Assembly: GCA_017557425.1 (NCBI GenBank)
Contig: JAFYYU010000012.1
Location: forward strand, 186,001 to 250,000
From: Muribaculaceae bacterium
GTDB taxonomy: Bacteria > Bacteroidota > Bacteroidia > Bacteroidales > Muribaculaceae
Length of the DNA: 64,000 nucleotides
Reading direction: 5' to 3'
In this document: in pieces, positions 18,808-54,269 of the stretch
Position numbering within the stretch: the stretch's first letter is position 1
Layout: the number at the start of each line of letters is the position of its first letter
Made by a program: the position numbers and the translations under genes
Notes under the pieces: generated by a model
The model's input: only the letters and a program-made list of their open reading frames with translations
Told to the model about the DNA's origin: nothing
Databases searched by the model: none

Positions 18808-20001
18808 ATGGAAGAAGAACTCAAAGACATAGAGATGCAGCCTGTAGAGACGCAAAATCTTGCGTCTCCCGATCAGCCGGTCCAGGACACCCAACCCGTC
18901 CAGCCTGCCCGCAAGCGCTACCCGTGGTATTACGTGAAGCGCTTTGACCGCTACATCATCAAGAATTTCTTGGGCACCTTCTTCTTTGCCATCCTGCTGC
19001 TGTTTGCCATCGTTGTGGTGTTTGATATCAACGAGAAGCTGGATGCCGTGCTCACCGCGCCGCTCAAGGCGACCGTGTTCCAGTATTTCATGAACTTTCT
19101 GCCCTTTGTGCTCAGCCAGTTCAGCCCGCTGTTCACCTTTATCGCGGTGATTTTCTTCACCTCGCGCCTGGCCGACCGCAGCGAGGTCATCGCGATGCTC
19201 TCCAACGGCATCAGTTTCCACCGCCTGACGTTACCTTACCTGTTCTCGGCGGCAGTGATTGCCGTGGGCAGTTATCTGTTGTCGGCCTATATCATCCCCC
19301 CTGCCAACGTCGAGCGCATCGCTTACACGAACAAGTGGGTCAAGAACAAGGAAGTGGTGTATGGCGACAATATCCAGTTGCAGGTCAAACCCGGCGTGAT
19401 GGCCTATATGGCGCGCTATGACAATACGACCCGCAGCGGTTTCCGTTTCTCGCTGGAGGAATTTGACGGCACCACGCTCAAGTCACGCCTCACTGCCGAG
19501 ACCATCCGTTATGATTCGGTGGGGCTGTGGACTGTGCGCAACTACACCATCCGTCATTTCAAGGGCTTGAACGAGACGATGACACGGGGCAATGTGATGG
19601 ACACGCTGCTGAATATCGACCCGCGTGACTTCCTCATCAGCAAGAACGACGAGCAGACCATGACCTCGCCCGAGCTCAAGGAGTACATCAACAAGCAGAA
19701 GGCCCGCGGTGTGGCCAACATCAAGAACTTTGAAATCGAGTACGAGCGCCGCATCGCCATGACGGCGGCCTCGTTTATCCTCACCATTATCGGCCTGTCG
19801 CTCTCGTCGCGCAAGGTGAGGGGCGGTATCGGTCTGAACATCGGATTGGGCCTGCTGTTGAGTTTTTCCTACATCCTGTTCATGACCGTGACCTCGACGT
19901 TTGCCGTGTCAGGTTACACCAGCCCGCGTGTGGCCATGTGGATTCCCAACTTTGTCTATATCATCATCGCCGCTGTCCTCTATTACCGCGCTTCGCGTTA
20001 A
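18808..20001 (+). CDS. lptG: LptG/LptF (YjgP/YjgQ) family lipopolysaccharide export permease
   Basis: A 397-residue inner-membrane protein of the LptB2FG transporter that extracts LPS and hands it to the periplasmic bridge. Two N-terminal transmembrane helix groups (about 48-72, 92-150), a periplasmic beta-jellyroll region (about 160-300) and three C-terminal helices match the family. The family core begins near residue 35 (YPWYYVKRFDRYIIKNFLGT); the first 34 residues are an extra hydrophilic N-terminal extension containing VETQNLASPDQP, encoded by a perfect palindrome. This extension probably arose by insertion of that element. LptF and LptG cannot be told apart with confidence here. Confidence 0.88.
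   Translation: MEEELKDIEMQPVETQNLASPDQPVQDTQPVQPARKRYPWYYVKRFDRYIIKNFLGTFFFAILLLFAIVVVFDINEKLDAVLTAPLKATVFQYFMNFLPFVLSQFSPLFTFIAVIFFTSRLADRSEVIAMLSNGISFHRLTLPYLFSAAVIAVGSYLLSAYIIPPANVERIAYTNKWVKNKEVVYGDNIQLQVKPGVMAYMARYDNTTRSGFRFSLEEFDGTTLKSRLTAETIRYDSVGLWTVRNYTIRHFKGLNETMTRGNVMDTLLNIDPRDFLISKNDEQTMTSPELKEYINKQKARGVANIKNFEIEYERRIAMTAASFILTIIGLSLSSRKVRGGIGLNIGLGLLLSFSYILFMTVTSTFAVSGYTSPRVAMWIPNFVYIIIAAVLYYRASR
18843..18883 (+). repeat. In-frame palindromic element in lptG
   Basis: Perfect 9-bp arms GAGACGCAA and TTGCGTCTC around AATC (18847-18868), read as ETQNLAS. The flanks TGTA and CCGATCAGCCGG are shared with the M64 copy (the latter) and mirrored in the lptD copy (TACA). Confidence 0.88.
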
Positions 20002-20070
20002 ATCTTATCGGTTTTACTGATTTCTGTGATTATTTGTAAGCGATTTGTGCAATAATCAGGATTTTTTCTT

Positions 20071-20078
20071 TATATTTG
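20071..20078 (+). promoter_or_regulatory. -7 promoter element of secreted protein gene 20117
   Basis: TATATTTG followed by C, 38 bases upstream of the ATG. Confidence 0.6.
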
Positions 20079-20116
20079 CGGCATAATCGTTTATTGTTTT
20101 TAAATCACATTGCATT

Positions 20117-21781
20117 ATGAAAAGATTCTTTACTCTATTGATGTTGGCGACCATGACCGTCGGAATCATGTTTGCCGAGTGGAAACCCAGTGACACCGAG
20201 GCCATCCGTCTGGATGCCGAGAACGCTTCCGGTCAGGTGCAGATGAAGTCCGTGCGCACCGATGACGGTAAGATCGTCCTCAGCTGGTTGCGTGGTGAGA
20301 GAACCGATGGCGTTTTCTCCTACAAATTGCACTTGCAGCTGTTTAATGCAAACGGTGAGGCCATGTTTGGCGACGAGGGCGTCATCGTCTGCGATAAGCC
20401 TACCCGTACCTGGACTACCGACTATGGAATGACGTTGGCTCCCAATGGCGATATCCTGTTGGCTTACACCGATATACGTAATGATCCAAATGAGGAAAAT
20501 GCCGAGACCTACCTCTATCGCTATAACCAGCAGGGACAGCCCGTGTGGGGCGTGGACGGCATCCTGTTCCCGTCAGGAAAGATTCATGAGACTGCTTTCG
20601 CAGTCGAAGATGTTGCTCCTGCAATTTGCGTGAGTGGTGACAACATTTTTGCTACAGCCTACCATACCGAGTATTACATGGAGGAGGCCAACGAAGATAA
20701 CTGGCAGCCCTCGCCCTGGTTCCCCAACCAGCAGATGCCCGACTCGGTACAAGTGAGCTCCGGTGCTTGGATTGTAGTGCTCATGAACGACGACGGCAGC
20801 ATTGCCACCACCGAGCCGATGTCACTTGACAGCAAAATCCTGACGATGAATCCCGCTCCCGAGGGCAATGTATATGCCGTTTATGACAACGAGGCGATGG
20901 GTCTTGACGCCCAGCTGCTCAATGCCGAGGTGAAGAATGTGTGGGAGGCTCCCGTGACCCTCGAGGAGCGTTCGCTCTCGGGCGGCATGTATATGCCCAC
21001 GCCGATCACCGCTGTGAACGAGAACGACAACCTGATGCTGACCTATCGCGTGCTGGCTTCGTTCTATGGCTATCAGGTAGTTAATCACTTGACCCCCGAG
21101 GGCGAGACCGCTGCTGAGGCTGTCAGCCTGAACAATAGCATTGACGGCGACGCCGGCTCTGCTGCCATGGGCGTCAAGGAGAATCGTGCGTTTGTGGCTT
21201 GGGGATGGGCTTATTCGGGCTCGGCCAACTACATGAATGTAAACGTCGTGGACGACTACAACAACTACTTTTGGACCGGTGACAACACCTATGGCGTGTC
21301 GCTCGACTTCAACGAGGACTGGGGCTTCACCCCTGTCAAGGTGATTCCGGTTGCCGACGGTTGGGTTGTGCTCTATGGCAACAGCACCAGCTGGAACGGC
21401 GCAAACTTTATGGTGACTATGGTTGACGAGTTTGGCGAGGTTGTATGGACCAAGCAGATCTGTGAGGACAACTTCAAGTCAAGCGGATTCTCGGTAGTTT
21501 ATGACGACAAGAATGCCTATATCTTCTACACCCAGGAGGCACAGTATGACGACAACTGGGAGGAAATCCCCGGCACGGCCGGCATGTTTGTCATGTGTGT
21601 TGACATCACTGGCAATGGCGGCGCTTCGTCGATCGAGGAGATCCAGACCAGCACCAAGCTGAACACTGTCGAGATCTACACCATCGATGGCCGTCAGGTC
21701 AATGAGTTGACCAAGGGCGTGAACATCATCCGCACCACCGACGAGAACGGTGTGGTAACCACCAAGAAAGTGCTCAATTAA
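20117..21781 (+). CDS. Secreted protein with type IX secretion-like C-terminal tail
   Basis: A 554-residue protein with a signal peptide (about 1-20). The middle looks like a repeated beta-propeller or beta-sandwich structure, with recurring units such as GKIVLSWLRG, GDILLAYTDI and GWVVLYGNST, but no catalytic motif was recognised. The last about 50 residues (VEIYTIDGRQVNELTKGVNI and on to KKVLN) resemble the short T9SS type A sorting tails of Bacteroidetes, suggesting surface delivery. It is monocistronic, flanked by its own promoter and a T-rich terminator. Function unknown. Confidence 0.78.
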   Translation: MKRFFTLLMLATMTVGIMFAEWKPSDTEAIRLDAENASGQVQMKSVRTDDGKIVLSWLRGERTDGVFSYKLHLQLFNANGEAMFGDEGVIVCDKPTRTWTTDYGMTLAPNGDILLAYTDIRNDPNEENAETYLYRYNQQGQPVWGVDGILFPSGKIHETAFAVEDVAPAICVSGDNIFATAYHTEYYMEEANEDNWQPSPWFPNQQMPDSVQVSSGAWIVVLMNDDGSIATTEPMSLDSKILTMNPAPEGNVYAVYDNEAMGLDAQLLNAEVKNVWEAPVTLEERSLSGGMYMPTPITAVNENDNLMLTYRVLASFYGYQVVNHLTPEGETAAEAVSLNNSIDGDAGSAAMGVKENRAFVAWGWAYSGSANYMNVNVVDDYNNYFWTGDNTYGVSLDFNEDWGFTPVKVIPVADGWVVLYGNSTSWNGANFMVTMVDEFGEVVWTKQICEDNFKSSGFSVVYDDKNAYIFYTQEAQYDDNWEEIPGTAGMFVMCVDITGNGGASSIEEIQTSTKLNTVEIYTIDGRQVNELTKGVNIIRTTDENGVVTTKKVLN

Positions 21782-21818
21782 TGCTCTAGGATAGAGGCTG
21801 TATAAAGCCTTGAACGTT

Positions 21819-21857
21819 AAAAAGGCAGGAAAAAATCATTTTTCCTGCCTTTTTTTT
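21819..21857 (+). terminator. Rho-independent terminator
   Basis: GGCAGGAAAAA pairs with TTTTTCCTGCC around ATCAT and is followed by a T-run of eight to nine. Confidence 0.9.
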
Positions 21858-21877
21858 AGGATTTGGTCAAGAATGTT

Positions 21878-21885
21878 TATCTTTG
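21878..21885 (+). promoter_or_regulatory. -7 promoter element of the TlpA-Omp28 operon
   Basis: TATCTTTG followed by C, 40 bases upstream of the ATG at 21926. No further such element was seen before 27518, so it probably drives all five genes. Confidence 0.65.
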
Positions 21886-21925
21886 CGACTTTAAAAATAT
21901 GATGAATTCAAATTTCTAGTTGTAT

Positions 21926-22417
21926 ATGAGAAAGTGTATTTTAACTACCGTGATTTGCCTGCTGGCCGCCGTGGGCGTGGCACAGGCCCAGTTGCCTGCC
22001 GTGACGTTGAAGACCCTTGACGGGACAACAGTCAATACCGGGACCTTGAGCAACGACGGCAAACCCTTCATCATCGACTTTTTTGCTACCTGGTGCAAGC
22101 CCTGCAACCGCGAACTCTCGGCCATCGCCGATGTCTATGACGAATGGCAGGAGGAAACCGGTGTGAAAATCTATGCCGTGAGCATCGACCAGGCGCAGAA
22201 CATCAATAAGGTAAAGCCGCTCGTTGACCAGAATGAATGGGAATATGAGGTCTTGCTCGATCCCAACAGTGAGCTGCTCAAAGCCCTGGGCGGACAGATG
22301 ATTCCCTTTGTCATAGTCGTTGACGGCAACGGAAACATCGTGTCGAAACACAGCGGCTACACTGACGGCGCCGAGGGAGAATTGATAGAGGAAGTCCGCA
22401 AGCTACTCGAAGAATAA
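21926..22417 (+). CDS. TlpA-family periplasmic thioredoxin-like protein
   Basis: About 163 residues with a signal peptide (MRKCILTTVICLLAAVGVAQ) and a thioredoxin fold. The redox motif is FFATWCKPCNREL near residue 57, with the cis-proline loop in GGQMIPFVIVVDGNG near 130. TlpA/ResA-like proteins reduce or oxidise thiols of exported proteins. The ATG at 21926 is used; a TTG two codons upstream is less likely. It is the first gene of a tight five-gene operon with two Omp28-like proteins that also carry CxxC motifs, so those may be partners (inference). Confidence 0.9.
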   Translation: MRKCILTTVICLLAAVGVAQAQLPAVTLKTLDGTTVNTGTLSNDGKPFIIDFFATWCKPCNRELSAIADVYDEWQEETGVKIYAVSIDQAQNINKVKPLVDQNEWEYEVLLDPNSELLKALGGQMIPFVIVVDGNGNIVSKHSGYTDGAEGELIEEVRKLLEE

Positions 22418-22434
22418 ATCCATCATACTGAGGA

Positions 22435-24084
22435 ATGATCCGATTGAAACCAATACATTTAATGCTGCCGGTGCTGTTGCTGGTGGCATTACCTGTTTAT
22501 TCACAGGTTACGCTCAGCGGTAGCATCCAGAGTGACATCCTGGTACCCCAGGATGATGAAAAGATCGGTACCGAACACTCCGAGGATAAGGTGTTGACTA
22601 ACACCTATCTGGATTTGAATCTGGGTAGTAAGTATGTGGATGCCGGCGCACGTTTTGAGTTCCTGAAGTACCCGTTGCCCGGCTATGAGCCTGATTTTAA
22701 GGGATGGGGCGTGCCTCATTTTTATGTGAAAGGACACGTCAATAACGTGGAACTCACGCTGGGTGACTATTACGAGCAATTCGGTTCCGGTTTTATCCTG
22801 CGCACCTACGAAGAGCGCTCGCTGGGCATCGACAATGCCCTGCGCGGAGCTCGCCTGAGCTTTAAACCGGTGAATGGCGTGAACCTGAAAGCCCTGACAG
22901 GTAAACAGCGCCGCTACTGGCATCACAACGATGCCCTCGTCAGCGGCGTGGACTTGGAATTGGGCTTGGATCAGTTTTTCAAGTCGCTTGAGGGCCACGA
23001 TACGCACATCACCCTGGGCGGCTCATGGGTTAACAAGCATGAGGATGCCGACGCCGATGCCATCTTTGTTGATGCCACCCACAAGCTCAACCTGCCGGAG
23101 TATGTCAACGCATGGGACGCACGTGTCAACGTGGCCCACAAGGGTTTCAATATACTTGCCGAGTATGCTCAGAAGAGCCAGGACCCGTCATTTGACAACG
23201 GCTACCACTACGGAAAGGGCAATGTGGCCATGCTCAGCACTTCCTATTCCAAAAAGGGCATGAGTGTGTTGCTGCAGGCCAAGCGCAGCGAGGGTATGGC
23301 TTTTCGCAGCCGTCGCAGCATGAGCGGCACCTCCAGCTTTATCAACCACTTGCCGGCCTTCACACATGACCACACTTATGCTTTGCCGGCCAACTATCCC
23401 TATGCCACGCAGTTTGACGGCGAATGGGCGTTACAGGCCGAGTTCGGCTACTCTTTCAAGAAAAATACGTCATTGGGTGGCAAGTACGGCACCAAGTTTT
23501 TATTGAATATCTCTCATGTGCGTGGACTTGACTACGACGGTTTAAAGAATCCCGTGCTCGATGGCCGCATCATGGGTAGTGATGGTCACAAGTCGGACTT
23601 CTTCAAGATGGGTGAGCTGTACTACCAGGACATCAACGTCATGATGGACAAACGCTTCACGCGTGACTTTTCACTCATTTTCATGTACATGAACCAGCGT
23701 TACAACATGACGGTGGTCGAGGGACACGGCGGCATGATCAAGTCCAACATCCTTGTTGCTGACGGTAAGTACAAAATCTCGCCCAAGTTGACGCTGCGCT
23801 GTGAACTGCAGTACCAGTTCTGTGAAGGGGACGATGGCGATTGGGCCTACGGTCTGGCAGAACTCTCCTGGGCTCCTCACTGGATGTTCACCGTGAGTGA
23901 CATGTGGAACTGTGGGGAAACCAAGGTGCATTATTATCAGGCATTGGTGACCTATAGTCTCAAATCCCATCTCATTCAGGCTGGTTACGGCCGCACGGCC
24001 GAAGGGTTTAACTGCTCTGGCGGTGTCTGCCGCTGGGTACCCGCTACCCGAGGTTTCACGTTGTCATATAATTACTCGTTCTAA
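22435..24084 (+). CDS. DUF6029-family outer-membrane beta-barrel protein
   Basis: A 549-residue protein with a signal peptide (about 1-24, ending VYSQ) followed by alternating amphipathic strands typical of a beta barrel and ending in the aromatic strand FTLSYNYSF, a standard outer-membrane barrel signature. Stretches such as VELTLGDYYEQFGSGFILRT and LSFKPVNGVNLKALTGKQRR match my recollection of DUF6029 proteins, which are Bacteroidetes-specific and of unknown function. It sits 17 bases after the TlpA-like gene and 3 bases before the Omp28 lipoprotein, implying a joint role in the outer membrane. Confidence 0.85.
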   Translation: MIRLKPIHLMLPVLLLVALPVYSQVTLSGSIQSDILVPQDDEKIGTEHSEDKVLTNTYLDLNLGSKYVDAGARFEFLKYPLPGYEPDFKGWGVPHFYVKGHVNNVELTLGDYYEQFGSGFILRTYEERSLGIDNALRGARLSFKPVNGVNLKALTGKQRRYWHHNDALVSGVDLELGLDQFFKSLEGHDTHITLGGSWVNKHEDADADAIFVDATHKLNLPEYVNAWDARVNVAHKGFNILAEYAQKSQDPSFDNGYHYGKGNVAMLSTSYSKKGMSVLLQAKRSEGMAFRSRRSMSGTSSFINHLPAFTHDHTYALPANYPYATQFDGEWALQAEFGYSFKKNTSLGGKYGTKFLLNISHVRGLDYDGLKNPVLDGRIMGSDGHKSDFFKMGELYYQDINVMMDKRFTRDFSLIFMYMNQRYNMTVVEGHGGMIKSNILVADGKYKISPKLTLRCELQYQFCEGDDGDWAYGLAELSWAPHWMFTVSDMWNCGETKVHYYQALVTYSLKSHLIQAGYGRTAEGFNCSGGVCRWVPATRGFTLSYNYSF

Positions 24085-24087
24085 GTG

Positions 24088-24882
24088 ATGAAAAAGTTAT
24101 ACTACATATTGATGCTGGCAGCATTAGGTTTTCTGGCCTCCTGTGACGAGATATCCCAAGACGAGCGCCTCACCTATGTGGAACCGCCGCAAGTGAGCCG
24201 TGCTGTGCTCATCGAGGATTACACTGGCCAGTACTGTGTGAACTGCCCGCGTGCTACCGAGGAGATAGAACGCCTCATCGAGCAGTATGGCGATACCACG
24301 GTCATCGCGGTGGCCATCCATTCCGGCCCGTTTGGCAAGTACAAGGGAGAGCCCTCGCCACTTTATACCGAGACGGGTGACATGTACTTCAGCAAGTGGG
24401 GCATGTCGGCGCAGCCAGTGGGCTTAGTGGACCGGCTTTTTGGCCCGATGCTGTTCAGCTACACCGATTGGGCTGGTGGTGTGAACTACGAGATAGCTTT
24501 TAAGGCTCCTGTGTCGTTCATGACCGAGGCTTCCTATGACGAGGAAACCCGCCAAGCCGCTATCGAGGTGCAGACCATCGGCTTGGACTCGGCGCTGGTC
24601 AGCGGCAAACTCCAGGTATGGCTCATCGAGGACAGTATCGACAGTTTCCAACTCATGCCTGACGGGTCAAGGCAGGAACACTATAACCACATGCACGTGT
24701 TCCGCGCCAGCGTGAACGACCCGTGGGGTGACGAGGTGAGCGTGGCTCACGGCCAGGTAGCTGCCAAGAACTATGCCATCAGGCTCGATCCCGCTTGGGT
24801 GCCTGAGCATTGTGCGATTGTTACCTTCCTCTATGACGATGAGGGTGTTAAACAAGTTGCTAAAAAGAGACTGATTGACTAA
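24088..24882 (+). CDS. Omp28-family outer-membrane lipoprotein
   Basis: About 264 residues. The signal peptide ends in the lipobox LASC, so the mature protein is lipid-anchored at Cys 18. Residues about 48-62 read DYTGQYCVNCPRATEE, with a CxxC in thioredoxin-like context, the Omp28 hallmark, and the cis-proline-like MSAQPVGLVDR lies downstream. A GTG codon directly before the ATG is an alternative start. The gene lies between DUF6029 and a dockerin protein. Omp28 was described as a Porphyromonas gingivalis surface protein; biochemical function remains unclear. Confidence 0.88.
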   Translation: MKKLYYILMLAALGFLASCDEISQDERLTYVEPPQVSRAVLIEDYTGQYCVNCPRATEEIERLIEQYGDTTVIAVAIHSGPFGKYKGEPSPLYTETGDMYFSKWGMSAQPVGLVDRLFGPMLFSYTDWAGGVNYEIAFKAPVSFMTEASYDEETRQAAIEVQTIGLDSALVSGKLQVWLIEDSIDSFQLMPDGSRQEHYNHMHVFRASVNDPWGDEVSVAHGQVAAKNYAIRLDPAWVPEHCAIVTFLYDDEGVKQVAKKRLID

Positions 24883-24904
24883 ACATAAAAAACCTAAAAT
24901 AATT

Positions 24905-25588
24905 ATGAGGAAATTCTTTACTTTATTATTATTTGGCCTGTCCATGTTGGCTTGGCCTATCCAAGCTCAGGAAATTGACGAGAGCTACATGTTCATGGAC
25001 GATGAAGGCAATATCATCGAGAATGGCGCCACTGTCATCCGCAATGTGGTTGAATCCTACGACGAGGGGACCGAAGTCATTTATTCGGGGATTTATGTCA
25101 TCAATATGACGGGTTCGACCGATTTTCTGTCTGTTCACTACGTGATTGAGAAAATCGACAACGGCACTTACCAGATTTGTTTCCCCACTACCTGCAACAC
25201 CAAGAATACAGTGGGATCTTATGAGACCAGTACTGGACAACTCATGGCCGACGTCCAAAACATTGAGAGCGAATGGTTCCCCGTGGCCGATGGCGAGTGT
25301 ATCGTGACCCTCACCATCGAACTTTATACCAAGATGGGACTGTTCCCGCCCACCTATGTCCACAAGGGCTGGGGACCCACGATGACGTTGAGGTTCGTCA
25401 AGGGCAATGTTCCTGTTCCTGTTACGGGAGATGTCAATGGTGACGGCGAGGTGAATATTGCCGACGTTAATGCGGTCATCGACATGATTTTGAGTGGTGT
25501 GAACGGCGAGAATGGTGATGTGAACGGTGACAACGAGGTGAACATTGCCGACGTCAACGCCATTATCGATATCATCCTCAAGTCATAA
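24905..25588 (+). CDS. Small secreted dockerin-domain protein
   Basis: About 227 residues from the ATG at 24905 (MRKFFTLLLFGLSMLAWPIQ, signal peptide ending AQ). The middle about 130 residues form a compact beta-rich domain that I do not recognise. The C-terminus has two dockerin-type calcium loops, GDVNGDGEVNIADVNAVIDM and GDVNGDNEVNIADVNAIIDI, of the VN subtype also seen in the 46205 gene. It is the fourth gene of the TlpA-DUF6029-Omp28 operon, 22 bases after the lipoprotein. Confidence 0.85.
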   Translation: MRKFFTLLLFGLSMLAWPIQAQEIDESYMFMDDEGNIIENGATVIRNVVESYDEGTEVIYSGIYVINMTGSTDFLSVHYVIEKIDNGTYQICFPTTCNTKNTVGSYETSTGQLMADVQNIESEWFPVADGECIVTLTIELYTKMGLFPPTYVHKGWGPTMTLRFVKGNVPVPVTGDVNGDGEVNIADVNAVIDMILSGVNGENGDVNGDNEVNIADVNAIIDIILKS

Positions 25589-25634
25589 GCCTTATACTAC
25601 AAAAGGAATTCTAGCCATTAAACAAGATAATAAC

Positions 25635-27518: not shown

Positions 27519-27521
27519 ACA

Positions 27522-46001: not shown

Positions 46002-46012
46002 CCTCATTCCCC

Positions 46013-46096
46013 TTCTTTTCAAGGCATAGAGCCGTTGAAGTGCTTAATACAAAATTGTAAAAGTCGGGACGAATACCAGCGCCTCATGAACAATCA
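46013..46096 (+). repeat. 3' flank cassette, copy 2
   Basis: Matches 45264-45347 over 84 bases. The hairpin TTCAAGGC/GCCGTTGAA is the best formed of the three copies. Confidence 0.75.
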
Positions 46097-46149
46097 ATCA
46101 TCAAAATCTAAGAGAAAATAGCGAAAAAATGCCTGCCTGTGCAGGTCAA

Positions 46150-46170
46150 GAGTTTGTCAAAAGACAACTC
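46150..46170 (+). other. Short hairpin upstream of the FGE-domain gene
   Basis: GAGTTTGTC and GACAACTC pair around AAAA with one bulged T. No promoter element of the standard type was seen in 46097-46204, so how the next gene is transcribed is unclear. Confidence 0.4.
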
Positions 46171-46204
46171 ACCGAGAGAATATAACCATTAAACATAACA
46201 TATT

Positions 46205-47746
46205 ATGAAAAAGAACCTCTTATTATTGTTTACTTCCCTTTTGGTGGCCTTGTGCGCCAATGCGCAAGTATCGGTGTGTGGTGTTAATCCCGATGATAAC
46301 GGCCACTTCGATTGTCCTTACATCAAGAGCGGCTCCGTCACTTGGAACGCTACCAGCAAGACCCTGACCCTGTACAATGCTGTTATTGAGTACAGCAGCA
46401 ACAATCCCCAGGATGGCATCAGGCCCATTCGTGTCACCGGCGATGCGACCATCGTTGTTCATGGAAACTGCCGATTGACCTCCACTGGCCATGTAGCTAT
46501 CGCAATAGACTCCTATACCTCCAAGAATGTGATTATCAAGGGCAATGGCTCCCTTTCCACATACAGCTCCTGGATTGACATTTTCCTTGTTGTCGCCCAT
46601 TTGACCATCCAGGATATCACATTGAATACCGTCAAGGGAATCGCCAATAATGCCGAAGGCAATGGCGTAGGACTCACATTCGACAATGTGCAGGCCACCA
46701 TTATGGGTGAGGTTGCAAGAATCGGCGATGGCATCACCTTCAATAACTGCGCTATCACTTACCCCGAAGACGCCTATTTAGAACAATCATCCTATGGCTA
46801 TAGCATCTATTGTGGCAACCATCAAAGTCCCGACAAGATTATCATCTCTCGAAATGGTGGGCTTAAAGGTGATGTCAATGGTGACGGGGAGATAAATATC
46901 GCCGACGTGAATGTGATAATCACCATGATTCTGGGCGACAGTGGCAGCTATACTTCGGCGGACGTCAATGCTGATGACGAGGTCAATATTGCCGATGTCA
47001 ACGCTATCATCAATATCATCCTTGGCGACGGTTCCACTCCAATGGTCATCGAGACGTTCACCGCGAATGGCGTGGAGTTCAAAATGGTAAAGGTCGATGG
47101 CGGTACCTTCACAATGGGCGCTACCCCTGAACAAGGTGACGACGCCTACAGTAGTGAGAAGCCGGCTCACCAGGTGACCCTGTCCAGCTACAGAATCGGC
47201 CAGACCGAGGTGACTCAGGAGTTGTGGACGGCCGTGATGGGCTACAACTGGAGCCATTTCACTGGCGACATGAACCTCCCAGCCGATCAGCTGTCCTGGA
47301 GTGAATGCCAGGAATTCATTACCAAACTGAACCAACTCACCGGAAAGACGTTCAGAATGCCCACCGAGGCCGAATGGGAATATGCTGCGCGCGGCGGCAA
47401 ACAGAGCAAGGGCTACAAATACGCCGGCAGCAACAATATCGACGAAGTCGCTTGGTATGACGATGGCAACAGCCCCTGTGCAACAAAACCTGTCGCCACC
47501 AAAAAGCCTAATGAGTTGGGCATTTATGACATGTCGGGCAATGTGATGGAGTGGTGCAGCGATTGGTATGGCCCCTATAGCAGTGAAGCGCAGATTGATC
47601 CGGTTGGCCCTGAAACTGGCACAGATCGCATTACCCGTGGCGGCTGCTATAGTTTCTCATTGCCGAGGATGTGCCGTGTGTCGGCCCGGCGCTACTATAG
47701 CCCTACGTTTGAGGCTCCAGCCAATGGCCTTCGTCTGGCCCTCTGA
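46205..47746 (+). CDS. Secreted protein with internal dockerin and C-terminal FGE-sulfatase-like domain
   Basis: A 513-residue protein with a signal peptide (about 1-21). Residues about 22-215 form a beta-rich, possibly beta-helical domain; about 220-277 hold two dockerin loops (GDVNGDGEINIADVNVIITM and DVNADDEVNIADVNAIINII); about 285-512 form a formylglycine-generating-enzyme-like domain (GGTFTMGATPEQGDD, TEVTQELWTAVMGYNWSHF, RMPTEAEWEYAARGG, YDMSGNVMEWCSDWYG). The catalytic Cys pair of true FGE is not clearly placed (GGCYSFSLPRMCRVSARRYY), so a non-catalytic or different role is likely. A dockerin between two domains is unusual here; the others are C-terminal. Confidence 0.85.
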   Translation: MKKNLLLLFTSLLVALCANAQVSVCGVNPDDNGHFDCPYIKSGSVTWNATSKTLTLYNAVIEYSSNNPQDGIRPIRVTGDATIVVHGNCRLTSTGHVAIAIDSYTSKNVIIKGNGSLSTYSSWIDIFLVVAHLTIQDITLNTVKGIANNAEGNGVGLTFDNVQATIMGEVARIGDGITFNNCAITYPEDAYLEQSSYGYSIYCGNHQSPDKIIISRNGGLKGDVNGDGEINIADVNVIITMILGDSGSYTSADVNADDEVNIADVNAIINIILGDGSTPMVIETFTANGVEFKMVKVDGGTFTMGATPEQGDDAYSSEKPAHQVTLSSYRIGQTEVTQELWTAVMGYNWSHFTGDMNLPADQLSWSECQEFITKLNQLTGKTFRMPTEAEWEYAARGGKQSKGYKYAGSNNIDEVAWYDDGNSPCATKPVATKKPNELGIYDMSGNVMEWCSDWYGPYSSEAQIDPVGPETGTDRITRGGCYSFSLPRMCRVSARRYYSPTFEAPANGLRLAL

Positions 47747-47804
47747 TCGGTTCAGGTCTCAAAAGTTCAGAAATAATTGAAGAGTATTTAGGGCGAATAA
47801 TCGC

Positions 47805-47812
47805 TATATTTG
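47805..47812 (+). promoter_or_regulatory. Promoter cassette (copy 4), -7 element
   Basis: TATATTTG followed by C, preceded by AGAGTATTTAGGGCGAATAA, a weaker match to the cassette before 42476 and 45444. It drives the frameshifted small gene at 47842. Confidence 0.55.
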
Positions 47813-47841
47813 CAAGCGGCAATATCATATATCTCGAAGTT

Positions 47842-47972
47842 ATGTCTGATAATGAAAAAGTAAAAAAGAGAGAAAAAAGATAATTATCATAACGTCTTGT
47901 TTCTTTGCTTTTCTGATAGCCTTCTGTCTAATTTTTGCGATGGTTTTGATAGTGGCTTATTACAACCTATAG
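47842..47972 (+). pseudogene. Frameshifted small single-helix membrane protein gene (copy 1)
   Basis: The ATG at 47842 reads MSDNEKVKKREKR then stops. The downstream copy at 48354 has a run of seven A where this one has six (47862-47867); adding one A restores MSDNEKVKKERKKIIIITSC and a hydrophobic helix ending VAYYNL, about 43 residues. The leader GCAATATCATATATC and first codons are nearly identical between copies. It lies in a 331-base gap (47747-48077) that otherwise holds a promoter cassette and a third 3' flank cassette. Confidence 0.7.
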
Positions 47973-47996
47973 TAAAAATGCTTTATTAGAATCCCC

Positions 47997-48047
47997 GTCT
48001 TTTCAAGGCGTAAACGGTTGAACATCTTATACCAAAATTATAAAACT
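47997..48047 (+). repeat. 3' flank cassette, copy 3 (partial)
   Basis: GTCTTTTCAAGGCGTAAACG and the following bases match the first part of the cassettes at 45264 and 46013, including the TTCAA/TTGAA hairpin, then diverge. Confidence 0.65.
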
Positions 48048-48077
48048 AAATAAGTATTTAGTTTCTAATTAACAACT

Positions 48078-48308
48078 ATGAACAGAAAAATTAAATCTGC
48101 AATAATATCAATTATTGTCATTGTAGCAATAATAGTAGACATCATTTGGGATGTCTTATTATGGACAAATGCTTACGTTGATGGCAAATATATTTTTGGA
48201 GACAATGATACTTATTATTTGAGAGTTGGTAGCCTATCAGCTGCTATGTTCATCAATCTTGTTGTTATTATCGTATTGCTACTCATTTTAGCAACCAGAA
48301 GAAAATGA
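48078..48308 (+). CDS. Small two-helix membrane protein, unknown function
   Basis: A 76-residue protein, MNRKIKSAIISIIVIVAIIV onwards, with hydrophobic helices near 7-28 and 50-72 separated by a polar loop (NAYVDGKYIFGDNDTYYLRV). Strongly AT-rich compared with the surrounding housekeeping genes. It sits between the two copies of the MSDNEKV gene. No family was recognised; such proteins may be envelope stress or toxin-like peptides, but nothing in the sequence decides it. Confidence 0.6.
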   Translation: MNRKIKSAIISIIVIVAIIVDIIWDVLLWTNAYVDGKYIFGDNDTYYLRVGSLSAAMFINLVVIIVLLLILATRRK

Positions 48309-48353
48309 GTGTTTAGCGAATTTACTAGTAGCAATATCATATATCTTGAAGTT
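48297..48353 (+). promoter_or_regulatory. Degenerate promoter cassette (copy 5)
   Basis: GAAGAAAATGAGTGTTTAGCGAATT matches the upstream half of the cassette, but the TAnnTTTG element is missing and the sequence runs directly into the leader shared with the 47842 copy. It overlaps the end of the previous gene by 12 bases. Confidence 0.45.
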
Positions 48354-48512
48354 ATGTCTGATAATGAAAAAGTAAAAAAAGAGAGAAAAAAGATGATTAT
48401 CTTAAAGTCATGTTTCTTTGGTTTTCTGATAGCATTTTGTCTCATTAATATTTTGGTGTTTATAATAGCTCTATTTCTAGGTGATGCAGGCGGTTGGCTT
48501 ACCTTTGCGTAA
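48354..48512 (+). CDS. Small single-helix membrane protein (copy 2, intact)
   Basis: A 52-residue protein beginning MSDNEKVKKERKKMIILKSC, with a basic N-terminus followed by one membrane helix (about 19-42) and a short tail GDAGGWLTFA. It is the intact homolog of the frameshifted copy at 47842. A longer frame from 48309 includes the promoter cassette and is rejected. A basic N-terminus plus one helix is also the shape of type I toxin peptides, but no antisense RNA was identified. Confidence 0.6.
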   Translation: MSDNEKVKKERKKMIILKSCFFGFLIAFCLINILVFIIALFLGDAGGWLTFA

Positions 48513-48580
48513 ACCAACCGTTTTTATGATACTCACGATAAATGTAATCTTGGCAACGTTGAAGTAAGGCAATGCTTCTA

Positions 48581-49783
48581 TTATGGTAGAGATACTTTGT
48601 TGAGGATGCCCTTGAGGTGGGCGATGGCGATGCCGTAGTTGGTCATTGGCACGCCCTGGGCGCGGCATTGCTCCACACGCTGGAGCATGAAACGGCGGTT
48701 AAACATGCATGCGCCGCAATGGATGATGAGGTCATAGCTCGTCAAATCCTCGGGGAAGTCCTTTCCCGCTACAATATCAATTTGCAAGCCTTCTCCTACA
48801 CGCTTTCGCAGCATGCGGGGTATTTTCTCGCGCCCGATGTCCTCAGGCAGAGGAGCGTGGGTGCAGGCTTCGGCGATAAGAACCCGCGATTGCTCGGTCA
48901 AGCGGTCAATGGCTGCTGCACTCTCGGTAAAGTAACGGATGTCGCCTTTATGGGCCGCCATTAGCACCGAGAACGAGGTGAGCAGGCTGCCTTCTGGCTT
49001 TTTCTTCTCCACGATGTCAAACACCTGCGAGTCGGTGATGATGAGTCGTGGCGGCTCCCTCAAGGCGGCTAGTGAGCGGTCGATGTCCTCGGTTGTACAG
49101 CAGATGGCGATGCAACCCTTGTCCATCAGGTCGCGCAGGGTTTGCACCTGGGGCAGGATGAGCCGTCCCTTGGGCGCCTGCGGGTCTTGAGGCATGACCA
49201 GCAGCACGGTATCACCTGCCTTTGCCAAATCGCCTGTGAGTGACTGTTTCCCTTGGTCAGGAACCAGTCTGGCCAACGTCTGCCGCAGCAAGTCCAGTCC
49301 AGTCCCTTGCAAAGCGCTTACGGCGATGACCTCACCTCCTAACCGTTTGGCAATGTTGTCGAGTAGGGTAGAGGGCACTTTTCCCATCAGGTCCACCTTG
49401 TTGAGCACGACCACATAGGGGACATCGGCTTGCTTGAGCAACGCTGCCCATGCCGCCTCGTCATCGAGCGAGGTGGCGTCGGTGACTAGGATGGCGATAT
49501 CAGTCTGTTTGATGACTTCGCGGGTGCGTTCGGTGCGCAGGTCGCCCACTTTGCCGCTGTCGTCAAAGCCTGCCGTGTCAATCAGCACACAGGGGCCCAA
49601 CGGCAGAATCTCCATCGATTTGATGACAGGGTCAGTCGTGGTGCCGGGAACGTCGCTCACCAGGGCAATGTGCTGCCCCGTGAGTGCATTGATAAGCGAC
49701 GACTTGCCCACATTGCGTCGTCCAAACAGTGCAATGTGCAGCCGCTCACTCTGCGGCGCCCTATTAAAAGCATTATCAGCCAT
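48581..49783 (-). CDS. hydF: [FeFe] hydrogenase H-cluster maturation GTPase HydF
   Basis: About 400 residues from the ATG at 49783. The N-terminal GTPase domain has the P-loop GRRNVGKSSL near residue 21, switch-region PGTTTDP, DTAGFDD and NKVD. The C-terminal domain carries the cluster-binding signature CTHAPL near 307 and IIHCGACMFN near 357 (CxH...HCxxC). HydF is the scaffold on which the 2Fe subcluster is built and transferred to HydA. It lies downstream of hydG on the same strand, separated by a 109-base gap with a large inverted repeat. Confidence 0.95.
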   Translation of the reverse strand: MADNAFNRAPQSERLHIALFGRRNVGKSSLINALTGQHIALVSDVPGTTTDPVIKSMEILPLGPCVLIDTAGFDDSGKVGDLRTERTREVIKQTDIAILVTDATSLDDEAAWAALLKQADVPYVVVLNKVDLMGKVPSTLLDNIAKRLGGEVIAVSALQGTGLDLLRQTLARLVPDQGKQSLTGDLAKAGDTVLLVMPQDPQAPKGRLILPQVQTLRDLMDKGCIAICCTTEDIDRSLAALREPPRLIITDSQVFDIVEKKKPEGSLLTSFSVLMAAHKGDIRYFTESAAAIDRLTEQSRVLIAEACTHAPLPEDIGREKIPRMLRKRVGEGLQIDIVAGKDFPEDLTSYDLIIHCGACMFNRRFMLQRVEQCRAQGVPMTNYGIAIAHLKGILNKVSLP

Positions 49784-49811
49784 GAAAAGGCAAACCAACG
49801 GTTATAAAAGG

Positions 49812-49880
49812 AAAACAATAAGTACAATAATCACAATGCTATCAGAGCAAAAAAATAGTATTTATTGTACTTCTTGTTTT
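49812..49880. mobile_element. MITE-like inverted repeat between hydG and hydF
   Basis: Arms AAAACAATAAGTACAATAA (49812-49830) and its reverse complement at 49862-49880 match at 18 of 19 positions around a 31-base spacer. The arm resembles the ends of the element at 35620-35811 (ACAAGAAATACAATAAGCAC). No T-run marks it as a terminator. Confidence 0.5.
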
Positions 49881-49892
49881 CATTATCTCAGT

Positions 49893-51308
49893 TTAGAAGT
49901 AGAAGTCGCGCTTCCCGTTTGCAATGTCGTTAATGCGCTGGGTGGCGATTTCACGCACTCTGGGATTGGATATCAAACTGAGATCTTTCTCGATGAGGGC
50001 GTTGCCCTTGGCGCGGGTGTCCTCGCTGGCAAAGTCCATGAGGTACTCCTTGAGCGTCATCAGCGCGTTGGGGGTGCAGATGTCGCCGATCTTGCCTGCC
50101 TTGACCAGCTCCATGAAACGGTCTCCCGTGCGGCCCGAGCGGTAGCAGGCGGTGCAGAAGCTGGGGATATAGCCGATGGACAGCAACCAGTTGATGACCT
50201 CGTCAAGGGTGCGCGTGTCGCTCACGTCGAACTGTGCCGTCTCGTCGTGACGCTCCACAGTCGTGTAGCCACCGACGCTGGTGCGGCTGCCGCCGCTGAT
50301 CTGAGACACGCCCAGGTCAAGCACCTTGCTGCGCACAGCTTGGCTCTCGCGGGTCGAGATGATCATGCCGGTGTAGGGCACAGCCAAGCGGATAACGGCG
50401 ATGATGCGGCAGAAGATTTCGTCGGGCAGCACGTCGGGGAACTCGTCGAGGCTGATGTCCTCGGCAGGGCAGATGCGGGGTACACTGATGGTGTGCGGTC
50501 CCACACCGAAGCGGGCTTCCAGGTGCTCGGCATGCATGAGCAGACCCACAAAGTCATAGCGGTAGGTCGTCAGGCCGTAAAGCACGCCGATGCCCACATC
50601 GTCGCAGCCACCCAGCTGGGCGCGGTCCATCGCCTCGGTGTGGTAGCAATAGTTGCTCTTAGGTCCCGTAGGATGCAGGGCTTCGTAGTTCTTGCGGTTA
50701 TAGGTTTCCTGGAACAGGATATAGGTGCCGATTCCGGCGGCCTTGAGCTTTTCATATGCTTCGACCTCGGTTGCGGCGATGTTCACGTTCAGACGGCGGA
50801 TTTCGCCGTTGCCCACCTTGGTGTCATATATGGTGTGGATCGATTCCAGGATATATTCCAGGGGATTCATCACGGGGTGCTCGCCAGCCTCCAATGCCAG
50901 ACGCTTGTGTCCCATCTTGACGAGCGCCTCAACCTCGGCGCGGATTTCGTCCTGTGACAGTTTCTTGCGCGGGATGGTCTTGTTGATGGCGTGGTAAGGA
51001 CAATAGACGCAGCCGTTGATGCAGTAGTTTGACAGATACAACGGAGCAAACAGAACAATGCGGTTGCCGTAGAAACGCCGTTTAACGTCCTTGGCCAGTT
51101 GTTCATAGCGTTCAATCAGGTCCGGCTGGTCGCAATCGAGCAACACAGCGGCCTCGCGGTGTGTTAAGCCCTTGCACAGGGCGGCTTTGTTGATGATTTC
51201 TTCTATCAGGGCACGGTTGCTCTTATTCTTTTCAGCGTATGCTAGGGTGTCTAGTATCTCGCTATCGTCGATGAATTCATCGGCATGGTTAGACTTGACG
51301 TTATACAT
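49893..51308 (-). CDS. hydG: [FeFe] hydrogenase maturase HydG (radical SAM tyrosine lyase)
   Basis: About 471 residues. The ATG at 51308 (MYNVKSNHADEF) is used because the -7 element at 51342-51349 excludes the longer frame from 51365. The radical SAM motif is NYCINGCVYCPYH near residue 92, and the C-terminal auxiliary cluster site is CTACYRSGRTGDRFM plus GDICTPNA near 410-440. HydG cleaves tyrosine to make the CO and CN ligands of the H-cluster via an Fe-S synthon. All cysteines expected for both clusters are present. hydF follows; the third maturase, hydE, is not in the window. Confidence 0.96.
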   Translation of the reverse strand: MYNVKSNHADEFIDDSEILDTLAYAEKNKSNRALIEEIINKAALCKGLTHREAAVLLDCDQPDLIERYEQLAKDVKRRFYGNRIVLFAPLYLSNYCINGCVYCPYHAINKTIPRKKLSQDEIRAEVEALVKMGHKRLALEAGEHPVMNPLEYILESIHTIYDTKVGNGEIRRLNVNIAATEVEAYEKLKAAGIGTYILFQETYNRKNYEALHPTGPKSNYCYHTEAMDRAQLGGCDDVGIGVLYGLTTYRYDFVGLLMHAEHLEARFGVGPHTISVPRICPAEDISLDEFPDVLPDEIFCRIIAVIRLAVPYTGMIISTRESQAVRSKVLDLGVSQISGGSRTSVGGYTTVERHDETAQFDVSDTRTLDEVINWLLSIGYIPSFCTACYRSGRTGDRFMELVKAGKIGDICTPNALMTLKEYLMDFASEDTRAKGNALIEKDLSLISNPRVREIATQRINDIANGKRDFYF

Positions 51309-51341
51309 GATATTTATGTCGTTATTAGTTGTTACAATCGG

Positions 51342-51349
51342 CAAATTTA
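51342..51349 (-). promoter_or_regulatory. -7 promoter element of hydG
   Basis: TAAATTTG followed by C on the minus strand, 33 bases upstream of the ATG at 51308. Confidence 0.5.
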
Positions 51350-51503
51350 GCAAAAATTTGTGCAAGGTGAATACAAACCAACAAGATTTTTGAGTTTTGT
51401 TGAGCCACAGCCAAATTTATCCAAAAGTAATCAGTTGTTATTCACATGTTGCTAAAAAAAGATAATAAAATTAAATCTTGCTTGCTTTGCTGTTCATTTG
51501 CAC

Positions 51504-51511
51504 TATCTTTG
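51504..51511 (+). promoter_or_regulatory. -7 promoter element of lptD
   Basis: TATCTTTG followed by C, with a TTG 19 bases upstream that would fit the -33 element. It lies within the apparent upstream end of the lptD reading frame and so rules out a start before it. Confidence 0.65.
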
Positions 51512-51536
51512 CCGAATATTTGGCCAACGGATAGCA

Positions 51537-54269
51537 TTGACGACGAGAAGTCTCCATATTATCCTGTTTTTGGTGGCGGCATGTGTGCTGTTGCCTGCTT
51601 TGTCGCATGGGCAGGTCTTGACTGGAAAGACAATCGACCTGACCCAGGCGGTTGATTCTGTCATCAAGGCCGAGAGCGACTCGGCGGAGACGCAAAATCT
51701 TGCGTCTCTACAGGCTCGTGACACGAGCCGTTTTGTGCGTGAGCGCGTGGATCTTGATCATATTGTCGAGTTCAATGCCAAGGACAGCATCATCCTTTTT
51801 GGCCGCAACCATGCGGTGATGTATGGTGGCAGCAAGATCCAGTACGGCGATATCGACATGAGCGCGTCGCAGATCAGCATGGACATGGACAGCAGCCAGG
51901 TGCAGGCCGTTGGTGTGCTAGACAGCATTGGCGAACTGACGGGCAAACCCGTGTTCAAGGACAATAGCGGCGAGTATGAGTCCAGGGTGATGAAGTACAA
52001 CTTCAAGACCAAACGAGGCTATATCACCGACATCGTCACTGAGCAGGGCGAGGGCTACCTCACCGGTGGCATCACCAAAAAGACTGAGGACGACTACTAT
52101 TACATCAAGGATGGCCGGTACACTACCTGTGACGACCATGACCATCCGCACTTCTACTTCCAGCTCACCAAGGCCAAAGTCAAACCCAAATCAAATGTGG
52201 TGACCGGCCCGGCCTATATGGTGCTGGAGGACCTGCCCCTGCCCATCGCGGTACCCTTTGGCTACTTCCCCTTCAGCGAGAAATACCAGAGCGGTATCCT
52301 GGTGCCCACCTTCGGCGAGGACTATAACCGCGGTTTTTATCTGCGCAATGGCGGTTACTACCTGGCGCTGAGTCAGTATGCCGACCTGGCATTGACAGGT
52401 GAGATCTATACCCGTGGGTCATGGGGGCTGACTGCCCAGTCGTCCTACTCCAAACGCTATAAGTTCTCAGGCTCGTTCAACGTCAGTTATCTGACCACCG
52501 TCACGGGTGAGAAGGGTGACCCGGACTACAGTAAGATGAAGAACTTCCAGGTGCAGTGGAGCCACAGCCAGAATCAGAAGGCAAACCCGTATCTGACCTT
52601 CTCGGCAAGTGTGAATTTTGCTACCTCGGGTTATGCCCGTAACAGCCTGAATACTTATTATACCAACGCCTTTACTGAGAACACCAAGAGCAGCACGGTC
52701 AACCTGACCTATAAGATTCCCAACAGCAAGTGGACCATCTCAACTACGGCCAACATTTCGCAACGCACTGCCGATTCGACGCTCACCGTGTCGTTCCCCA
52801 ACCTGACAATCAACATGAGCCAGACTGCGCCGTTCAAGCGCAAACGTGTCGTCGGTGACGAGCGCTGGTATGAAAAAATCAAGATCAGCTACAATGGCAA
52901 GTTCCAGAACTCCTTGACCGCCAAGCAGGACGAGTTCCTGCACAAGAGTCTGGTCAAGGACTGGCGCAACGGCATGAGCCACACCGTACCCGTTCAGGCG
53001 ACCTTCAACGTGATGAAGTATTTCAACATCACTCCATCGATGACGTTGAATGACCGCATGTACACCAGCAAGATACGACAGCAGTGGGATCCTAACGCCA
53101 GTGCGGTGGTTCGCGACACTACCTATGGCTTCTACAACATCTTTGATTTCAATTTCGCTGTTTCATTGAGCACCAAGGTCTATGGTTTCTTCAAACCGCT
53201 GAAGTTCTTGGGCAAACTCAGCGAAAAGCTGCAGATGGTGCGTCACGTGATGACCCCGACCATCTCGTTCTCGGCCGCTCCCGACTTCGGCTCTCCATAT
53301 TGGGGCTACTATGGTGACCTGGATTATGTGGACAACAACGGAGTGCACCACAATGGGCGTTACAGCTATTTCCAGCACGGGCTTTACGGCAATGCACCCA
53401 ATGGAAAGTCTGGAACGTTGTCATTTAACATCGCCAACAACCTTGAAGCCAAGGTCAAGAGCGAGAACGACAGCACGGGCTTTAAGAAGATATCTCTCAT
53501 CGAGAATTTCACCTTGACCCAATCCTGCAACCTGGCAGCCGACTCGTTGCAGTGGAGCAACCTCAACACCAGCATCATGCTTAGACTCACCAGGGGCTTT
53601 AACCTCAACCTGAGCGCCACGTGGGATGTCTATAAATATGCCCTCAACGAGTCAGGTGCTCCCGTGAGAATCAACAAACTGCGCCTGTTCAACGGTGGCG
53701 GATGGGGCCGCCTCTCCAGCACGGGTACTTCATTCTCCTACACGTTCAACAACGACACCTTCAGGCGCAAGAAGGACAATACAAAATCCGAAGACAACAA
53801 AAAGACCCCCGAGGGCAACCTCAATAAGGACAAAAACGAGGAACAGCCAGACGAAGAAGGCGGCGGACCGACCACCGACCTGGAACTTATCGACGGCTAT
53901 GCCAAGTGGGACTGCCCGTGGAACCTCACGGTCAATTATTCGCTGTCCTACGGCTACGGAAAGTTCAATTACGACAAACTCGAGTATAACGGGCGGTGGA
54001 CGCAGAACCTGAGCATGAATGCCAGTATCCGTCCCACAAAGAACTGGTCCTTCTCGGCTTCGGCAAGCTACAACTTTGACACGCACAAAATCGCCTACAT
54101 GAATTGCAGCATTTCACGCCAGATGCACTGCTTTGAGATGAGTGCCAGCTTTGTTCCCGTGGGTCCCTACAAGAGTTACAACTTCCACATTGCCGTCAAG
54201 TCATCCATCCTCCAAGATGTGAAATATGACAAGCATTCCAGCCTCAACAATGGAGTCACGTGGTATTAG
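51537..54269 (+). CDS. lptD: LptD-like outer-membrane LPS assembly protein
   Basis: About 910 residues. No ATG gives a sensible N-terminus; a TTG at 51537 yields a signal peptide (TTRSLHIILFLVAACVLLPA, ending SHGQ) downstream of the promoter and is the likely start. An N-terminal OstA-like domain (about 70-200, IILFGRNHAVMYGGSKIQYG) is followed by a long beta barrel. A charged low-complexity loop (KKDNTKSEDNKKTPEGNLNK) sits near residue 760. LptD inserts LPS in the outer leaflet. Just after the signal peptide, residues 51-57 (ETQNLAS) come from a perfect palindromic repeat. The YiiX-like gene overlaps its 3' end. Confidence 0.88.
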   Translation: MTTRSLHIILFLVAACVLLPALSHGQVLTGKTIDLTQAVDSVIKAESDSAETQNLASLQARDTSRFVRERVDLDHIVEFNAKDSIILFGRNHAVMYGGSKIQYGDIDMSASQISMDMDSSQVQAVGVLDSIGELTGKPVFKDNSGEYESRVMKYNFKTKRGYITDIVTEQGEGYLTGGITKKTEDDYYYIKDGRYTTCDDHDHPHFYFQLTKAKVKPKSNVVTGPAYMVLEDLPLPIAVPFGYFPFSEKYQSGILVPTFGEDYNRGFYLRNGGYYLALSQYADLALTGEIYTRGSWGLTAQSSYSKRYKFSGSFNVSYLTTVTGEKGDPDYSKMKNFQVQWSHSQNQKANPYLTFSASVNFATSGYARNSLNTYYTNAFTENTKSSTVNLTYKIPNSKWTISTTANISQRTADSTLTVSFPNLTINMSQTAPFKRKRVVGDERWYEKIKISYNGKFQNSLTAKQDEFLHKSLVKDWRNGMSHTVPVQATFNVMKYFNITPSMTLNDRMYTSKIRQQWDPNASAVVRDTTYGFYNIFDFNFAVSLSTKVYGFFKPLKFLGKLSEKLQMVRHVMTPTISFSAAPDFGSPYWGYYGDLDYVDNNGVHHNGRYSYFQHGLYGNAPNGKSGTLSFNIANNLEAKVKSENDSTGFKKISLIENFTLTQSCNLAADSLQWSNLNTSIMLRLTRGFNLNLSATWDVYKYALNESGAPVRINKLRLFNGGGWGRLSSTGTSFSYTFNNDTFRRKKDNTKSEDNKKTPEGNLNKDKNEEQPDEEGGGPTTDLELIDGYAKWDCPWNLTVNYSLSYGYGKFNYDKLEYNGRWTQNLSMNASIRPTKNWSFSASASYNFDTHKIAYMNCSISRQMHCFEMSASFVPVGPYKSYNFHIAVKSSILQDVKYDKHSSLNNGVTWY
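51687..51712 (+). repeat. In-frame palindromic element in lptD
   Basis: Perfect arms GAGACGCAA and TTGCGTCTC around AATC, identical over 22 bases to the lptG copy and read in the same frame (ETQNLAS). The trailing TACA mirrors the TGTA preceding the lptG copy, suggesting a longer ancestral palindrome. Confidence 0.88.

Follow-up and report, generated by a model that had tools for sequence, protein, structure and literature searches.

Double-foot REP elements and their transposases

The closest described relatives of the element considered here are the double-foot repetitive extragenic palindromic (REP) sequences that accompany subclass 2.4 of the REP-associated tyrosine transposases (RAYTs, also named TnpA_REP). 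In the part of its text compared here, Quentin 2018 (PMC6006769) describes in-frame REPs within tnpA_REP genes of this subclass, and notes that a double foot can result when the centre of an inverted dimer is deleted. We analysed a 64,000-nucleotide stretch of a Muribaculaceae bacterium (assembly GCA_017557425.1, contig JAFYYU010000012.1, positions 186,001 to 250,000), the whole of which is called the window below, where one palindrome is translated inside two genes of lipopolysaccharide export, lptG and lptD. Palindromes of this kind are very probably REP elements of the type mobilised by subclass 2.4 RAYTs, which are HuH/Y1 single-strand endonucleases. Elements of this kind were known before, and the novelty lies in the cases: copies in lptG, lptD, an M64 peptidase gene and a nonribosomal peptide synthetase (NRPS) gene, together with a count of reading frames, go beyond the description of subclass 2.4 in the main text of PMC6006769.

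As far as that main text describes it, subclass 2.4 shares with the present element a long hairpin with a 5' GTAG and a 3' CTAC foot, REPs that flank tnpA_REP and also lie between the HuH and Y motifs without breaking the frame, the protein motifs NH[IFV]H, WQ and YIxNNP, and an occurrence in Bacteroidetes, Cyanobacteria and scattered other phyla. Intragenic REPs of the GTAG and CGTC types are described in the passages compared from Di Nocera 2013 (PMC3733652). The GTAG REPs resemble the present ones in their GTAG-tagged palindrome, head-to-head dimers, position downstream of genes and intragenic copies in linkers or termini. In contrast to the present element, the GTAG families in those passages are listed for Proteobacteria, Cyanobacteria, Chloroflexi and the Planctomycetes-Verrucomicrobia-Chlamydiae group, not for Bacteroidetes.

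Rickettsia palindromic elements (RPEs) are also translated in frame within many unrelated genes. A preliminary description of the window had drawn this analogy, and it is apt, as the same passages of PMC3733652 count RPE-4 and RPE-6 as CGTC-type REPs. By their description there, rather than by sequence, these two are set apart from the present element, which has GTAG feet and a flanking RAYT, whereas RPE-4 and RPE-6 are of the CGTC type and have no dedicated transposase. Literature searches with the DNA of the element and with its peptides found no description of either: no paper contained the peptides, and none of the papers listed for the DNA contained a 22-mer. The small dispersed repeats that occur in cyanobacteria are reportedly mobile palindromes of very small size (Elhai et al. 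2008). In the main-text passages compared from PMC6006769 and PMC3733652, no preference for a frame is stated.

REP copies in the window

The genes and the two REPs that they carry are as follows.

18808..20001, + strand: lptG (LptF_LptG family; Pfam match over residues 48-394, E 1.8e-61)
18844..18868, + strand: REP with a 5' GTAG foot, GTAGAGACGCAAAATCTTGCGTCTC, read as VETQNLAS, lptG codons 13-20
51498..54269, + strand: lptD open reading frame (ORF; Pfam LptD_2, residues 234-712); TTG at 51498 is the first possible start codon and the true start may differ
51687..51711, - strand: REP in opposite orientation with a CTAC foot at its right end, GAGACGCAAAATCTTGCGTCTCTAC, read as ETQNLASL in lptD

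The cores at 18847-18868 and 51687-51708 are identical in 22/22 nt (GAGACGCAAAATCTTGCGTCTC). A scan of both strands of the window for GAGACGCAAAATCTTGCGTCTC with up to 3 mismatches matched only these two places, and each of them fits the opposite strand as well, at 2 mismatches; no match occurred in 100 dinucleotide shuffles. Both copies are in frame as ETQNLAS, from QPVETQNLASPDQ in lptG and DSAETQNLASLQA in lptD. The scan and the reading frames thus confirm the pair of identical palindromes reported in the preliminary description, and its reading of the flanks as traces of a longer palindrome is borne out: each copy has a single foot, GTAG at the 5' end in lptG and CTAC at the 3' end in lptD. 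The two REPs are therefore opposite in orientation; yet, the element being a palindrome, they encode the same peptide. Their predicted RNA hairpins have energies of -13.8 kcal/mol (z -4.2) in lptG and -16.1 kcal/mol (z -4.2) in lptD. The lptG copy sits in an N-terminal extension, and the LptF_LptG and LptD_2 domains both begin downstream of their REPs, in agreement with the proposal that the copies occupy dispensable spots.

The same description listed only these two copies. They stand, and it missed two more, a decayed copy and an intergenic one:

472..1956, + strand: M64 peptidase ORF (Pfam M64_N 43-162, Peptidase_M64 222-440)
1051..1075, + strand: decayed REP, GTAGAAACGCAGAATCCCGCCTCTC, read as VETQNPAS; the frame is retained and the hairpin is gone
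17567..17595 (core 17570-17592), + strand: intergenic REP-derived hairpin, GGGAGACGCAAAGCATTTGCGTCTCTTT, followed by eight T (to 17603)

The decayed copy is placed between the M64_N and Peptidase_M64 domains and folds no better than shuffled sequence (-1.8 kcal/mol, z +0.74). The intergenic hairpin (-16.2 kcal/mol, z -6.6) is terminator-like, lying 3' of the ORF at 16934-17560 and ahead of the ORF at 17653-18783. A terminator scan of 17000-19500 gave 2 sites, fewer than the shuffle average of 3.3, and the pattern match is thus not significant by itself. Two further observations concern the surroundings of the copies. The sequence CCCGACCAGCCTG after the decayed M64 copy also stands after the lptG copy of the species represented by genome G212. 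Short repeats of the GGCTTTAGGCTTTAGGTTTTAGG type occur directly before lptG (18782-18806) and elsewhere, and this motif is frequent in sister genomes.

Anatomy of the element and copies across the genome

The genome of the bacterium (G000) is a draft of 2.58 Mb in 24 contigs, 85% complete. The pattern GAGACGCAA, 0-12 nt, TTGCGTCTC has 7 exact-arm copies in it and none when read backwards, well clear of the chance level that the preliminary description named as a possible objection. When the pattern is loosened much further, to GACGC, 2-24 nt, GCGTC, the count is close to chance, with 73 matches against 57 in the control. Three of the seven copies are genic (lptG, lptD and the NRPS gene, where Pfam places the copy between PP-binding and Condensation domains) and four are intergenic. 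All four intergenic copies lie 3' of a gene with 8-10 T among the 12 nt that follow the hairpin, which fits a use as intrinsic terminators. The four intragenic copies (M64, lptG, lptD, NRPS) share one reading frame.

The full element is a double-foot 28-mer, GTAGAGACGC-N8-GCGTCTCTAC, with constant outer arms of 10 nt and a variable inner 8 nt. Among 61 distinct viral copies there are 26 distinct inner 8-mers, and in 21 of them 3 or 4 of the 4 inner positions pair. The inner part varies yet pairs, the pattern to be expected if it is the hairpin that is preserved. G000 contains one exact 28-mer with both feet and two with 1 mismatch. Sister species within the genus mostly have the single-foot form: 59 distinct cores (loci L411-L480) comprise 25 with GTA on the left only, 21 with TAC on the right only, 10 with both and 3 with neither. 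Eight close REP pairs with spacers of 17-56 nt occur in these loci, and in 6/8 only the outer ends carry the GTA/TAC feet, which is the arrangement of a REPIN (two REP units in inverted orientation).

The associated RAYT transposase

The element can be tied to a transposase of its own genus. Contig C71 of genome G197 (L465) carries a REPtron in which a RAYT ORF (3144-3668, 175 aa, 247 bits) is preceded at about 25 nt by a REPIN and followed at about 20 nt by two further REPs; the gene itself has no internal palindrome. Of the two readings offered in the preliminary description, the REP-like option was the right one.

RAYT-like ORFs are also found in loci fetched for the palindrome, and 11 of one type, with one outlier, were aligned. 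In 9/11 the palindrome is placed between MPNH[IV]H (HuH) and the WQ/Y motif, 8 as VET-xxx-ASL and 1 as RDAINRVST; the remaining two have it in the C-terminal tail (L100) and before the likely start (L187). Three g23 genomes have RDAINRVST inside a RAYT, one of these being the same gene as L061. The RAYTs of L286, L287 and L288 contain the palindrome in the RDA frame, and those of L284 and L285 contain VETQNFAS-like text. When a profile of the aligned RAYTs was compared with 149 genomes of the family, G112, G064, G023, G098 and G082 scored above 196 bits, all of them among the 7 genomes with the double-foot palindrome, and the next best score was 165 bits. No double-foot palindrome was present in or near the gene in any of 25 lower-scoring RAYT loci (L289-L313). 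With E up to 0.01, the sole PDB match of the profile is TnpA_REP 4ER8 (E 1.5e-8), and all 8 RAYTs scanned match NCBIfam REP_Tyr_transpos (E about 1e-13 to 4e-15).

Other candidates were rejected. IS200-like Y1 transposases (PF01797) occur in 88/149 family genomes and do not track the palindrome, and a profile built from these proteins had one match (L104) in the palindrome loci searched. Other RAYTs (G163, G177, Hymenobacter) accompany different hairpins. Across six loci, Rfam at its gathering threshold found only a tRNA.

Distribution in bacteria and viruses

A strict double-foot pattern is present in 7/149 family genomes, belonging to 2/30 genera, and the reversed control is 0 in every genome. 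G064 is the richest with 94 copies, and G044 has 14. This pattern is blind to single-foot copies, of which the congeners G197, G200, G212 and G213 have many. The exact 28-mer with the inner sequence AAAATCTT occurs in at least 118 stretches of genome contigs. Among the matches listed are Bacteroidota, Planctomycetota, Chloroflexi, Nitrospirae, Spirochaetaceae, Patescibacteria, Calditrichaeota, Balneolales, Synergistales, Desantisbacteria, gammaproteobacteria and deltaproteobacterial genera. With genera grouped into phyla, the matches listed span about 12 phyla, and the idea of a specifically Bacteroidales element is not supported. All 44 genomes reached through the listed 28-mer loci contain both-feet 28-mers, with up to 128 copies per genome. 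Viral stretches also carry the element, the 22-mer in 24 and the 28-mer with any inner 8 nt in 81.

Some copies are parts of larger structures. In G064 (L374, L375, L376) the palindrome recurs within a longer conserved unit, with CATTTCAATGTGGCA before it and a second hairpin, GAGACGCGGCACGCCACGTC, after it. At 15778-16010 of L374 there is a repeat, about 230 bp long, which aligns with itself in either orientation, like a miniature inverted-repeat transposable element, and which has many copies in G125 and G112. In a Calditrichaeota genome (L102, 1460-2400) a kinase domain has two translated copies in tandem (VETQNLAYSEKNNSLVETQNLASL).

Reading-frame preference

One frame of the double-foot element contains TAG, the second reads VET-xxx-ASL and the third RDA-xxx-VS; a lone 3' foot leaves all three open. 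In a first census of 182 distinct 28-mers, the spanning ORFs of at least 200 aa comprise 20 in the VET frame, 4 in RDA and 0 in the TAG frame (VET 20/24). A second census of 61 distinct copies from other viral contigs gave VET in 10/13 at a cut-off of 150 aa (p 0.046) and in 7/8 at 300 aa (p 0.035), and the two censuses pooled at 200 aa gave 28/35 (p 0.00025). Adding single-foot cores brings the set to 288 distinct cores, of which 44 lie in ORFs of at least 200 aa: 32 VET, 10 RDA and 2 in the third frame, one of these two being antisense to lptG.

Because ORFs are not proof of genes, 30 further ORFs were scanned with Pfam. A family was found in 18, of which 15 are in the VET frame and 3 in RDA (HsdM, DNA_alkylation and a TPR protein); the 12 ORFs without a Pfam match are excluded from the Pfam-supported frame count. 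With lptG, lptD and the NRPS gene included, the in-frame palindrome is thus found in 21 Pfam-supported proteins, in unrelated genes, and the VET frame in 18/21 (p 0.0007), the strong bias that the preliminary description had looked for. Leaving out lptG and lptD, which prompted the question, the count is 16/19 (p about 0.002). The sites range from linkers (IleRS, UvrD, HsdR) to positions inside the domain match (kinase, CHAT, ABC, HsdM).

History of the sites in the genus

Among 12 close orthologs of lptG, the identical core is present in 4 (G000, G209, G212, G197), altered in 2 (G211, G194) and absent from 6. The four genes with the identical REP agree in DNA, beyond peptide identity. The peptide is altered to ETQNPAP in G211 and to ETQDPVS in G194, whose copy has complementary changes (GAGACACA and TGTGTCTC). 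The lptD copy is found in G000 alone among 28 loci aligned, and the nearest species, G209 and G212, have in its place an unrelated stretch only 3 nt shorter. Distant orthologs with ETQNLAS in diverged codons, which the preliminary description named as the case that would speak against it, were not seen: among the loci aligned, the lptD peptide is confined to the bacterium's own genome and the lptG peptide to close congeners. The NRPS site holds an intact element in G000 and decayed ones in G197 and G200. Six species lack it there, their length differing by 0 or 3 nt and not at all in 3/6. Since element-free sites are nearly as long, clean insertion cannot be shown, and the sharp insertion boundaries expected in orthologs were not obtained. 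An old insertion with decay in some lineages fits these data, and so does replacement. For empty-site comparison, the g23 genomes were too divergent, and the asnS site had no alignable ortholog.

Intergenic sites have histories of their own. The hairpin at about 1501 of L001 follows an ORF that we take to be fba-like. It is common to G200, G213 and G197, has a variant sequence in G209 and G211, and is absent from 6/12 genomes. At the ackA-pheS site 6/7 aligned sequences have the hairpin. It is observed that REP-free species have a different sequence at the fba-downstream site (L411-L440), several of them carrying an inverted repeat of another kind (GCAAGGCCACTTGC type), as though one hairpin were exchanged for another at a single terminator site.

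Proposed mechanism and alternative explanations

In the proposed model, the basic unit is a GTAG-footed hairpin, GTAG-AGACGC-N8-GCGTCTC; a pair of inverted units makes up a REPIN, whose collapse gives the double-foot 28-mer. By analogy with its family, the RAYT may recognise the GTAG foot and hairpin on single-stranded DNA and then move or copy the element. Copies in genes would survive only at spots and in frames that the protein tolerates, and the hydrophilic VET-xxx-ASL frame would be tolerated more than RDA-xxx-VS, so that the same peptide comes to stand in many genes. The copies in lptG, lptD and the NRPS gene and the decayed M64 copy would be such survivors. Intergenic copies just downstream of genes, when followed by a T run, resemble intrinsic terminators and may be used as such.

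Several points weigh against this explanation or parts of it. The nine RAYTs with an internal palindrome were drawn from palindrome-bearing stretches, with no control rate from random stretches, and the score of G023 is partly circular, because its own RAYT is included in the profile (A1). The NCBIfam REP_Tyr_transpos scores are 50-56 bits, under the model cut-off of 80, and Pfam PF01797 is unmatched at E 0.001 by 5/5 of these RAYTs. PF01797 genes in general do not follow the palindrome, and G023 has the palindrome and no PF01797. There is no close RAYT in G000 (best 54 bits) or G044, both of which are drafts. In the second frame census at 200 aa, 8 VET stand against 3 RDA, which alone gives p 0.11. 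A clean empty site was not found at the lptD and NRPS sites, where length is near-equal without the element. As no cognate RAYT is detected in G000, its copies are probably relics of activity in an ancestor or sister species.

The likeliest alternative is that a role in RNA or DNA, as terminator or mRNA hairpin, keeps the copies while the frame is incidental. The T runs after the four intergenic copies and the hairpin retained with changed sequence downstream of fba in G209 and G211 would agree with such a role, which we regard as possible though on balance doubtful: the M64 copy has no remaining hairpin, a terminator-like hairpin inside lptG or lptD would be without a T run, and a 3' intergenic position is a general habit of REPs in the passages compared from PMC3733652.

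Alternatively, integration itself might favour a target phase or sequence that yields the VET frame, so that the bias would owe nothing to selection. VET is the frame in 8/9 RAYT-internal copies and likewise in phage and bacterial genes, and the bias persists with different inner 8-mers (VETHGRASL, VETRHGASL). However, real genes (HsdM, DNA_alkylation, TPR protein) and the RAYTs of L286-L288 also carry RDA copies, and no target consensus is established, making this account unlikely.

Domestication, in which the ETQNLAS peptide would be functional in LptG, LptD and other proteins and kept by selection, was the other reading in the preliminary description. It is unsupported, and we consider it very improbable. 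In its favour are the single frame of the four intragenic G000 copies, the persistence of the lptG site in at least four species and the M64 copy, which lost its hairpin through three synonymous codon changes and one L to P change with VETQN-AS retained. Yet the peptide occurs in unrelated proteins (kinase, CHAT, ABC ATPase, IleRS, HsdR, HsdM, UvrD, phage portal), mostly in linkers or tails; sister-species lptD lacks it and the lptG peptides of G211 and G194 have changed; and the REP-bearing lptG genes agree in DNA, not in the peptide alone. An ordinary conserved peptide or chance similarity, hinted at by ETQ-like low-complexity text near the lptG site in element-free species, is refuted by copies outside genes and has a negligible chance of being true in view of the empty shuffles, the seven exact copies against none reversed and the exact 28-mers in many phyla.

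Within the preferred reading as REP elements, it is tentatively proposed that the element is shaped to be translatable, although we hold this to be rather unlikely. Its arms encode a bland VET-xxx-ASL, in the frame of most copies observed within its own transposase gene, and coding tolerance would be a selected trait that lets the element, a mobile palindrome of about 12 phyla and of phages, spread in genes, including essential ones, cheaply. If the frame preference is indeed a property of the element, REPs would offer a direct test of a selfish sequence adapting to translation.

The analysis supplies a frame count for translated REPs and ties the genic element of one bacterium to a RAYT of its own genus. 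The recurrence of short identical peptides in unrelated proteins of bacteria and phages is thereby explained, very probably, by the footprints of one mobile DNA hairpin.

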